Shown piece after piece: positions 30,532-33,339 of a stretch of 64,000 nucleotides of DNA; within the stretch, counting starts at the first letter, position 1, and the number at the start of each line of letters is the position of its first letter. Made by a program: the position numbers and the translations under genes. This DNA is from Candidatus Omnitrophota bacterium. Lineage in GTDB: Bacteria; Ratteibacteria; UBA8468; B48-G9; DTJG01. The notes below the pieces were generated by a model, which saw nothing but the letters and a program-made list of their open reading frames with translations, was not told the DNA's origin and did no database searches. The stretch spans positions 62,001-126,000 of the forward strand of contig JAMWCD010000006.1 in assembly GCA_023818965.1 (NCBI GenBank), read 5' to 3'.

Positions 30532-31145
30532 TTGAAGAAAAAGGAATGATTGTGGGAAAGAAAATCAGTGGACAGGTGGCTACTATTTCCATCAGGGGAG
30601 AAAAAATTTTTGAGGATCTATCTCCTGGAGATAGCATCAGTGTTGATGGTGTATGTTTGACAGTTGAAAAAATTCATTTTCCAGTTTTTTCTGTTACTGT
30701 TTCCAGTGAAACAATGAGATTGACCACACTTGGTTCAATTTTACCCGGTACCCAGGTAAATCTTGAACGAGCATTAAAATATGGAGACAGAGTAGGTGGG
30801 CATCTTCTTTCAGGGCACATTGACTTTAAAACTAAGATCTCAGGAAAAACAGATGCTGGCAAAAGCACTGTTTTAAAAATAAAAATTCCACCTGATTACA
30901 GGAAATTTTTTGTTCCAAAGTGCTCAGTTGGTATTGATGGTATTTCTCTTACTGTTGCTGATATTAAAGGCGATGAAATTCTTATATGGTTGATACCTTA
31001 TACGATTGAAAATACCACAATGAGCAATAAAAAAACAGGTGACTATGTAAATGTTGAAATAGATATTGTTGTTAAATCGATTATTGAACGAAATGTTGTT
31101 TCAGGGGAAAGACATGACAAAATCAACAAAGAAGCAATTTTTTAA
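30516..31145 (+). CDS. ribE: Riboflavin synthase, alpha subunit
   Basis: 209 aa; 'MFSGIIEEKG', 'GDSISVDGVCLTV', 'GGHLLSGHID', 'SVGIDGISLTV'. Confidence 0.96.
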   Translation: MFSGIIEEKGMIVGKKISGQVATISIRGEKIFEDLSPGDSISVDGVCLTVEKIHFPVFSVTVSSETMRLTTLGSILPGTQVNLERALKYGDRVGGHLLSGHIDFKTKISGKTDAGKSTVLKIKIPPDYRKFFVPKCSVGIDGISLTVADIKGDEILIWLIPYTIENTTMSNKKTGDYVNVEIDIVVKSIIERNVVSGERHDKINKEAIF

Positions 31146-32367
31146 AGTTGATACTATTGAAAGTGCAATTGAGGATATAAAAAAAGGTAAATTTGTGATT
31201 ATTGTTGATGACGCAAAAAGAGAAAACGAAGGAGACCTTGTTGTTTCTGCTCAGAAGGTAACACCACGACACATCAATTTTATGGCAAAGTTCGCAAGGG
31301 GTTTAATATGTGTTGCTCTCACAGGAGAAAGAATCAATCAATTAAAATTATCACCAATGGTGGAAGACAATACTGCTTTACACCATACAAATTTTACTGT
31401 TTCGGTTGATGCGAAAAAAGGCGTTACAACAGGGATTTCTGCATTTGATAGGGCAAAAACAATAAAAGTTCTTATCAGTCCTGATACAAAGCCAGATGAT
31501 CTTGCAAAGCCAGGTCATGTTTTTCCAATAAAGGCAAAGGATGGAGGTGTTCTGGTTCGTGCAGGGCATACTGAAGCAGCGGTTGACCTTGCAAAACTTG
31601 CCGGACATTACCCTGCTGGTGTGATATGCGAAATCATGGCAGAAGATGGTTCAATGGCAAGGATGCCTGAATTAATCAAACTTGCGAAAAAACACAAATT
31701 GAAGATCATTACGATTGCAGATTTGATAAAGTACAGAAGGATGAGAGAAAAACTGGTTGAACGAATTCTATCCGTGGAATTACCAACAAAATTTGGGACA
31801 TTTGAACTATTCCTTTACAGGGATAAAATTGAAGGAAATAATCATCTTGCTCTTGTGAAAAAACTTGATACAGACAAAGTACCTCTTGTAAGGGTCCATT
31901 CTCAGTGCATTACGGGAGACATTTTTCATTCTTTCAGGTGTGATTGTGGAGAACAGTTGCACAGAGCGCTTTCAATGATTGCGCAGGAAGGTGGAGCACT
32001 GGTATATTTACCACAGGAAGGAAGAGGGATAGGGCTTGAAGACAAATTGAGGGCATATAAATTACAATCAGAAAAAAATCTTGATACAGTGGAAGCAAAT
32101 CTATATCTTGGCTATCCTGATGACATGAGAGATTATGGTATTGGTGCACAGATTCTTCTTGACCTTGGCTTTACAGATATTCGTTTGCTTACCAATAATC
32201 CAAGGAAGATTGTTGGGCTGGAGGGATATGGAATTAATATTGTTGAAAGACTTCCGATAGAAGTTCCACCAACACCTTATTCTGAGAAGTACCTGAGAAC
32301 AAAAAAGTTGAAAATGAAACATCTAATCAGTAATGTTTCAGTTCAAAAGGTAGTGTCAAATAAGTGA
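31114..32367 (+). CDS. ribBA: 3,4-dihydroxy-2-butanone-4-phosphate synthase / GTP cyclohydrolase II
   Basis: Start chosen at ATG 31114; '[16 protein letters not shown]', '[23 protein letters not shown]', '[20 protein letters not shown]'. Confidence 0.96.
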
Positions 32368-32404
32368 TGAAAGATTTCACAGGGAAGAATAAGAAAAATA
32401 AGAA

Positions 32405-32446
32405 GTTTCCTCCCCATTGAGGGGGGAGGGAAAGGGTGGGGGTGAA
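32405..32446. repeat. Left GC-rich inverted-repeat arm flanking the DUF559 ORF
   Basis: TTTCCTCCCCATTGAGGGGGGAGGGAAAGGGTGGGGGTGAAA; imperfect inverted match to 32779-32825. Confidence 0.8.
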
Positions 32447-32834
32447 AAAATATAAAGCAGGACTAAAGCATAAAGCGCGAAGATTAAGGAAGGAACTAAC
32501 AGAGACGGAGAAATACTTATGGAAGTATTTAAGGGACAAACAAATAGGAGGATTTAAATTTCGGCGTCAACAGCCAGTAGGCAGATACATAGTTGACTTT
32601 ATAAATTTTGAGAAGAAACTAGTTATAGAAGTAGACGGAGGGCAGCATTCAATTTATAAAAAGAGGGACATCATAAGGGATAAATATCTTAAAAAAGAGG
32701 GATACAGGGTCTTAAGGTTCTGGGACAATGAAGTTTTAAATAATATAGAGGGTGTTTTAGAGGTGATAATGCAAAATCTTTCACCCTCACCCCAACCCTC
32801 TCCCCTCAAGGGAGAGGGTGAAAGGAATAATTAG
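32436..32834 (+). CDS. DUF559 / very-short-patch-repair-like endonuclease domain protein
   Basis: 132 aa; 'LRDKQIGGFKFRRQQPVGRYIVDFINFEKKLVIEVDGGQH', 'EGYRVLRFWDNEVLNNIEGVLEVI'. GTG start (32436 or 32442). Confidence 0.88.
   Translation: MGVKKYKAGLKHKARRLRKELTETEKYLWKYLRDKQIGGFKFRRQQPVGRYIVDFINFEKKLVIEVDGGQHSIYKKRDIIRDKYLKKEGYRVLRFWDNEVLNNIEGVLEVIMQNLSPSPQPSPLKGEGERNN
32779..32825. repeat. Right GC-rich inverted-repeat arm, with internal perfect hairpin
   Basis: CTTTCACCCTCACCCCAACCCTCTCCCCTCAAGGGAGAGGGTGAAAG; CCCTCTCCC (32796-32804)/GGGAGAGGG (32810-32818), 5-nt loop. Confidence 0.85.
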
Positions 32835-32874
32835 CCAAAATTGGCAGAACAGTTCAAAAAACAAAGGGGGAAAA

Positions 32875-33339
32875 ATGAAAATCTTTGAAGGAAATTTATC
32901 TGCTGAAGGAAAACGTTTTGGGATTGTTGTGAGCAGATTTAATGAATTTTTAACAAAGAATCTTCTTGAGGGTGCACTTGATTGTCTCAAAAGGCATGGT
33001 GCAGTAGAAGAAAATATTGATGTTGTCTGGGTTCCAGGTTCTTTTGAGATTGGTTTTGCTGCAAGAAAAATGGCATCTTTGAAAAGATACAATGCCATCA
33101 TATGTCTTGGTGTTATTGTGAGGGGGGCAACTGCCCACTTTGAATATGTGGCAGGGCAGGTGACAAGAATACTCGGGCAGATTAATGGGGAGGGTGTTGT
33201 TCCTGTGACCTATGGAATTATTATTGCTGATAGCCTTGAGCAGGCAACTGAAAGGGTTGGGACGAAAATGGGAAACAAGGGATGGAATGCGGCGCTATCT
33301 GCAATTGAAATGGCAAATGTCAGTGAACAGTTGAAATGA
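32875..33339 (+). CDS. ribH: 6,7-dimethyl-8-ribityllumazine synthase
   Basis: Start at ATG 32875; 'GIVVSRFNEFLTKNLLEGAL', 'WVPGSFEIGFAARKMA', 'CLGVIVRGATAHFEYVAGQV'. Confidence 0.96.
   Translation: MKIFEGNLSAEGKRFGIVVSRFNEFLTKNLLEGALDCLKRHGAVEENIDVVWVPGSFEIGFAARKMASLKRYNAIICLGVIVRGATAHFEYVAGQVTRILGQINGEGVVPVTYGIIIADSLEQATERVGTKMGNKGWNAALSAIEMANVSEQLK

Follow-up and report, generated by a model that had tools for sequence, protein, structure and literature searches.

The riboflavin operon in the window (the whole stretch of DNA analysed, 64,000 nucleotides long) carries a DUF559 nuclease gene between ribBA and ribH, which raises the question of how this gene came to be there and whether the GC-rich repeats around it are the ends of a mobile element. 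The preliminary description had read the run as ribD-ribE-ribBA-DUF559-ribH-nusB, with DUF559 as the inserted gene, and Pfam agrees, returning an E-value of 3e-41 for DUF559. The genes concerned are as follows.

31066 to 32367, + strand: ribBA (frame), its 3' end interrupted by the element
32436 to 32834, + strand: DUF559 gene, 132 aa, predicted Vsr/EDxHD-like PD-(D/E)XK nuclease
32875 to 33339, + strand: ribH, directly behind ribBA in congeners

The window protein scores 140 bits against PF04480 over residues 10-115, where the gathering cut-off is 20.6. Residues E25, D54, E65, D67 and H71 are invariant in 26 aligned sequences and are probably the catalytic residues of the PD-(D/E)XK/Vsr core. 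Profile comparison matched the protein to 3hrl, an endonuclease-like protein (1e-37), and more weakly to 3r3p, a 'mobile intron protein' (3e-5), which we take to be the catalytic domain of the EDxHD homing endonuclease I-Bth0305I. From these profile matches to solved structures, DUF559 is predicted to have a Vsr-like nuclease fold of the EDxHD type. The family has also been filed under EDxHD (PMC9403480), and a YcjD profile detects Vsr (PMC1189080). DUF559 proteins consist of the catalytic domain only, with no extra DNA-binding domain, and DUF559 is the only protein that the unit encodes.

The imperfect inverted-repeat arms reported around the ORF are present. Each is composed of a hairpin and a tail.

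32406 to 32433, + strand: left arm hairpin TTTCCTCCCC..GGGGAGGGAAA, from sequence and fold
32434 to 32447, + strand: left arm tail GGGTGGGGGTGAAA, putative third strand of a triplex-type motif
32779 to 32793, - strand: right arm tail TTTCACCCTCACCCC, from sequence
32796 to 32818, - strand: right arm hairpin CCCTCTCCC-CTCAA-GGGAGAGGG, from sequence and fold

This tail-plus-stem pattern occurs at two sites in the 64-kb window, both beside DUF559, far above the chance expectation of 0.02. In the whole assembly it was found only beside the two DUF559 copies, bar one weak match with three mismatches. In both arms the tail faces the gene and the hairpin faces away. The right arm, CCCTCACCC-CAA-CCCTCTCCC(CTCAA)GGGAGAGGG, is an exact match to the anatomy of the BoxC/PIT/TM motif, in which a mirror-symmetric tail, a short spacer and a short-loop hairpin form three C/G-rich blocks; the left arm matches this motif with two mismatches. 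Judged by sequence, the arms are putative BoxC/PIT/TM intrastrand-triplex motifs; a triplex in solution has been shown for the E. coli motif (PMC4666352), and the window arms are a sequence match. The gene runs into both arms. Translation of the right arm reads SPSPQPSPLKGEGE and supplies the DUF559 C-terminus, LSPSPQPSPLKGEGERNN, as had been described. The start and stop codons had both been placed inside the arms; this is correct for the start, the left tail holding the GTG start codons including that at 32436, and incorrect for the stop codon (32832-32834), which lies 14 bp past the right hairpin.

The arms had further been taken as the ends of the element that jumped, giving it an extent of 32405-32825. 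The unit that moved into the rib operon is larger, and its boundaries lie outside the arms.

32340 to 32348, no strand: left target-site duplication AGTTCAAAA, identical to 32851-32859 and not duplicated in congeners
32349 to 32363, + strand: left IS-like terminal inverted repeat GGTAGTGTCAAATAA, from the two-copy boundary and other family members
32349 to 32850, + strand: whole mobile unit, 502 bp, from the second copy and an 86% identical relative copy
32841 to 32850, + strand: right IS-like terminal inverted repeat TTGGCAGAAC, from the two-copy boundary and other family members
32851 to 32859, no strand: right target-site duplication AGTTCAAAA, identical to the left copy

The IS-like inverted ends (GGTAGTGTCA/TGGCAGAAC) and the 9-bp target-site duplication (TSD) lie 31-57 bp outside the arms. 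DUF559 occurs once more in the genome, between pfkA and ilvD (G000:C8:29360-29861); this copy differs from the rib copy by one base over 502 bp, and the identity of the two breaks off sharply at GGTAGTGTCAAATAA... and ...TTGGCAGAAC. Each copy lies between direct repeats of 9 bp, AGTTCAAAA at the rib site and (G/C)TGAATATT at the C8 site, where the pair has one mismatch. In a class relative, a Ca. Ratteibacteria record (G028), there is a copy of 86% identity, which has a TSD of its own, GCTTTTTAA. The last codons of ribBA and its stop are supplied by the element (..VQKVVSNK*). The comparison with relatives proposed in the preliminary description found no DUF559 between ribBA and ribH in congeners, where the two genes are joined directly; the rib insertion is therefore recent. 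Four congeners (G001, G003, G004 and G005; loci L057 and L060-L062) have DUF559 genes of a different clade (..YQFYRQRPIG..) at other sites, and this clade adjoins another repeat class (CCCCCTTTATAAAAGGGGG / CCTCCTTTTGAAAAGGAGG).

With terminal inverted repeats, a TSD, no transposase gene and multiple family members, the 502-bp unit has the make-up of a MITE or mobile insertion cassette. Members of the family that lack DUF559 resemble the unit at their ends, vary in their hairpin-rich interiors and have TSDs of 8-10 bp, in two members with a mismatch. In one such member (L075 in G013, 117 bp), a lone hairpin takes the place of the window's hairpin-tail-gene-tail-hairpin. A MITE-like family with the ends GGT[AT][GC]TGTCAAA.../...TTTGACAGAACC occurs widely in the class and order to which the window belongs (L098, L101, L094 and L075; G000:C10:55640-55906, L013; G000:C3:3064, L014); its interiors are assorted hairpins, its target duplications are 8-9 bp, and no autonomous element was identified for it. 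An IS256 transposase (PF00872) was considered as the mover of the 502-bp unit and has no match in this genome. Since the IS-like ends and the target duplication lie outside the arms, the last jump into the rib operon fits a trans-acting transposase, a simpler explanation than movement by DUF559 itself.

To describe the arms beyond this genome, 80 DUF559 loci were taken from genomes that represent 17 or more named phyla. The motif finder required a tail with mirror symmetry, then a short spacer and then a C/G hairpin, the tail lying toward the gene. The motif was present on the left in 63/80 loci, on the right in 69/80 and on both sides in 58/80, while just 2.7% of control windows contained it on one strand or the other. 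A both-sided motif flanked 1 of 465 neighbour ORFs of the same loci compared with 58 of the 80 DUF559 genes (Fisher p=1.6e-58). Of 75 testable loci, 61 had a flank-to-flank inverted-repeat score above that of all their sliding control windows; the median was 37, against about 16 in controls. The arms thus belong to the DUF559 gene in at least 17 phyla. Conserved arms had been predicted beside DUF559 in other genomes, and these results bear the prediction out; the contrary outcome that the preliminary description had named, arms equally common next to unrelated genes, is not what the neighbour ORFs show.

Stems vary between loci (CCCTCTCCC, CCTCCCCC, CCCCTCCC, CCTTCCCC) and are usually matched within one locus. 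Mapped on the nuclease tree, right-arm stem type changes 13 times, compared with 26.8 times when shuffled and 21.8 times when shuffled within phyla (minimum 14 in 200 shuffles); arm type follows the nuclease tree. When units of different species are compared, DNA homology breaks off close to the outer hairpin edge, in a range of -5 to +12 bp, for 93% of pairs on the left and 88% on the right; this agreement is partly helped by the arms themselves, which are low-complexity and alike. The unit boundaries are at the outer hairpin edges. Target duplications, which had been suggested as a check on the arms, were not above control at the hairpin edges of DUF559 units across phyla. The idea of a compact mobile cassette therefore stands in general, in that the arms are tied to the gene and the unit ends at the hairpins, and falls for the local boundary.

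At the level of genomes, DUF559 is present in 15/26 TM-rich genomes versus 10/71 others (p=4e-5); 11 TM-rich genomes are without DUF559, some DUF559 genomes are not TM-rich, and many are incomplete MAGs. Genome-wide motif counts in GC-rich genomes are nearly matched in frequency by a reversed-pattern control. Two further observations concern single genomes or small groups. Among three Desulfobacterota-type MAGs, L163 has its left flank in common with L138 and its right flank with L136, all around one DUF559 unit; this points to a rearrangement at the site of the unit, or to a join made in assembly. In G011 a 300-bp element that starts GGTAGTGTCAAAAAA recurs in near-copies at about 53 places (e.g. 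L076 position 1501), many of them at contig ends; its interior is structured and conserved (CTCCGGCACAGACAAGGACTACGCCGAAATCGGT...), and no transposase was seen inside it.

Allelic states of the unit were compared at one intergenic site in 18 Alcanivorax genomes. The site is filled in G097, G118 and G105, and in G111 and G119 the gene is inverted between the same outer hairpins. G112 has exactly one hairpin with the same flanks. Because G112 groups with G097 and G111, and is thus nested among filled alleles, its single hairpin is best read as a loss by deletion between the two palindromes. The filled allele keeps both hairpins intact, and no clean acquisition onto a pre-existing hairpin was caught among the Alcanivorax alleles. 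Solo motifs are scattered through the same genomes, as are inverted pairs without the gene, ~110-125 bp long, whose tails point outward, the reverse of the gene unit. The search for empty sites and solo arms that had been proposed thus yielded a one-hairpin site, inverted copies and solo arms. In Alcanivorax the intergenic sequence is too divergent to give clean junctions for TMs, whether solo or paired. In two further Alcanivorax loci (L296 in G104 and L297 in G106) DUF559 has a complete inverted TM pair on each side in place of a single TM.

In E. coli, the C-terminus of the DUF559 protein YcjD (..RRSPSP*) is encoded within a decayed motif, and a complete one stands ~150 bp downstream. The ycjD region of the sapF-fabI interval is fully matched in 3367/5426 complete E. 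coli genomes. It was rejected as a clean empty-site case: the examined strains without ycjD carry an efflux operon (eef) in its place, so that no clean ycjD junction is available. Azospirillum plasmids were also set aside as a source of empty sites, all related plasmids carrying the gene.

Taken together, we consider it probable that two elements are nested at this locus, a selfish, homing-like, palindrome-bounded nuclease unit riding here in a MITE-like element. The general layer would be a selfish unit of ~430 bp, hairpin-tail-nuclease-tail-hairpin. DUF559, with its predicted Vsr/EDxHD fold, would recognise and cut the palindrome in gene-less TM copies, homology repair would copy the unit between hairpins in a homing-like manner, and palindrome-palindrome recombination would invert the gene or delete it to leave a solo hairpin. 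In the local layer this unit would sit inside the MITE-like element, with its IS-type ends and 8-9 bp target duplications, and a trans-acting transposase may have moved the larger element into the rib operon and the second locus. We prefer break-and-copy to strand-transfer transposition because the sole protein is hydrolytic, the ends are palindromic and there is no target duplication; palindrome cutting, repair-driven copying and a role in spreading the gene-less repeats are what we infer. The proposal that Caulobacter VsrA, a DUF559 protein, is a mismatch-repair enzyme (PMC12907096) counts against the selfish reading, as do the 11 TM-rich genomes without DUF559, the DUF559 genomes that are not TM-rich, the survival of both hairpins in the filled Alcanivorax allele and the lack of an extra DNA-binding domain in DUF559 proteins. 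More tentatively, and with somewhat less than even credence, DUF559 proteins may be the mobility enzymes of BoxC/PIT/TM repeats throughout bacteria, a class separate from RAYTs, recognising the structured palindrome (hairpin or triplex) and copying the gene-plus-palindrome unit and its gene-less derivatives by break-and-repair.

The hairpin-defined ends without target duplication, the co-variation of arm type with the nuclease, and the solo and paired gene-less TMs in the same genomes, as with REPs/REPINs, would also suit a RAYT-like process. In that case, much as the preliminary description suggests, DUF559 would make a nick at the foot of the hairpin, perhaps on the lagging strand, and units from hairpin to hairpin, as well as TM pairs without the gene, would move either as single strands or as excised DNA. 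We judge this unlikely: the PD-(D/E)XK/Vsr fold hydrolyses DNA without a covalent intermediate, which leaves nothing for joining ends, and the paired TMs have their tails outward, opposite to the gene unit.

It is improbable, to a degree that we would call quite marked, that DUF559 is a pure passenger, cargo of MITE-like elements moved by unrelated transposases, with the hairpins as structural filler or terminators. This genome on its own could be read in that way, as the unit lies between IS-type ends and 9-bp TSDs and the MITEs also occur without the gene; across phyla, however, the unit edges have no TSD, homology stops at the hairpins, and many arm types all follow DUF559. Finally, while Caulobacter VsrA has been linked to cytosine methylation (PMC12907096) and BoxC adjoins genes of all classes (PMC4666352), the view that the arms are ordinary terminators or REP-like repeats such as stand beside any short mobile gene, the nuclease being a host Vsr-type repair enzyme, is very improbable and largely refuted by the single both-sided motif among 465 neighbour ORFs against 58 of 80 for DUF559, by the fixed orientation with tails toward the gene and by the matching of arms within each locus.

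No earlier report of a link between DUF559 and BoxC/PIT was found among the open-access papers searched. The repeats are tied, in many phyla and with sequences that co-vary, to a nuclease family whose role is unknown, and this tie makes both the role of the nuclease and the mobility of the repeats directly testable in laboratory E. coli (ycjD) and Alcanivorax. DUF559 is the first candidate for the spreader of BoxC/triplex repeats, whose mobility has so far been unexplained. If the nested, homing-like reading is true, the repeat-associated enzymes known from REP/RAYT would be joined by a class of hydrolytic nucleases, and the repetitive 'SPSPQPSPLKGEGE'-type peptide tails on the DUF559 proteins described here would have an explanation.

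The unit resembles several known systems in part. Mobile insertion cassettes and MITEs have IS-type inverted ends and a TSD around a passenger gene, without a transposase gene. The window unit is alike in its IS-type ends, 8-9 bp TSD, passenger and lack of a transposase gene, but its passenger is itself palindrome-bounded and spreads elsewhere without these IS ends. Vsr, the very-short-patch repair endonuclease, belongs to the same fold family, whereas the cassette has no linked cytosine methyltransferase and a palindrome-bounded mobile context. BoxC/PIT/TM motifs (Holder et al. 2015, PMC4666352) have the same anatomy as the arms and nearly the same sequence in many loci (CCCTCACCC-NNN-CCCTCTCCC-loop-GGGAGAGGG), and E. 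coli ycjD has such motifs directly downstream, one of which the YcjD C-terminus enters. For E. coli K-12 that study counted 23 motif copies, found neither a mobile-element association nor a mobility gene nearby, and reports that it found no activity beside them that would confer mobility (PMC4666352), whereas here a nuclease is tied to the motif across phyla.

Free-standing EDxHD homing endonucleases (I-Bth0305I; 3r3p) share catalytic-domain homology (E 3e-5) and the habit of a selfish lone nuclease gene. DUF559 differs in being catalytic-domain-only and in bringing its own palindromic ends, with no interrupted conserved coding site; a classical homing site is destroyed by insertion, whereas the filled DUF559 allele keeps both hairpins. 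REP/RAYT systems and REPINs (PMC2817692, PMC3116915) likewise place a single nuclease gene between inverted palindromic repeats, disperse the same repeats without the gene as singlets and pairs, and have a repeat type that tracks the enzyme. Dispersal of the flanking repeats is seen across DUF559 loci; the genome of the window has its arms at the two DUF559 copies only. RAYTs belong to the HUH tyrosine transposases, whereas the unit encodes DUF559 alone, a predicted PD-(D/E)XK/Vsr-type hydrolase; its arms are of the triplex type, with a mirror-symmetric tail and a hairpin, and the gene-less pairs are oriented the opposite way. We liken the DUF559 unit to both REP/RAYT and homing genes, as a palindrome-bounded selfish nuclease that is a member of neither.
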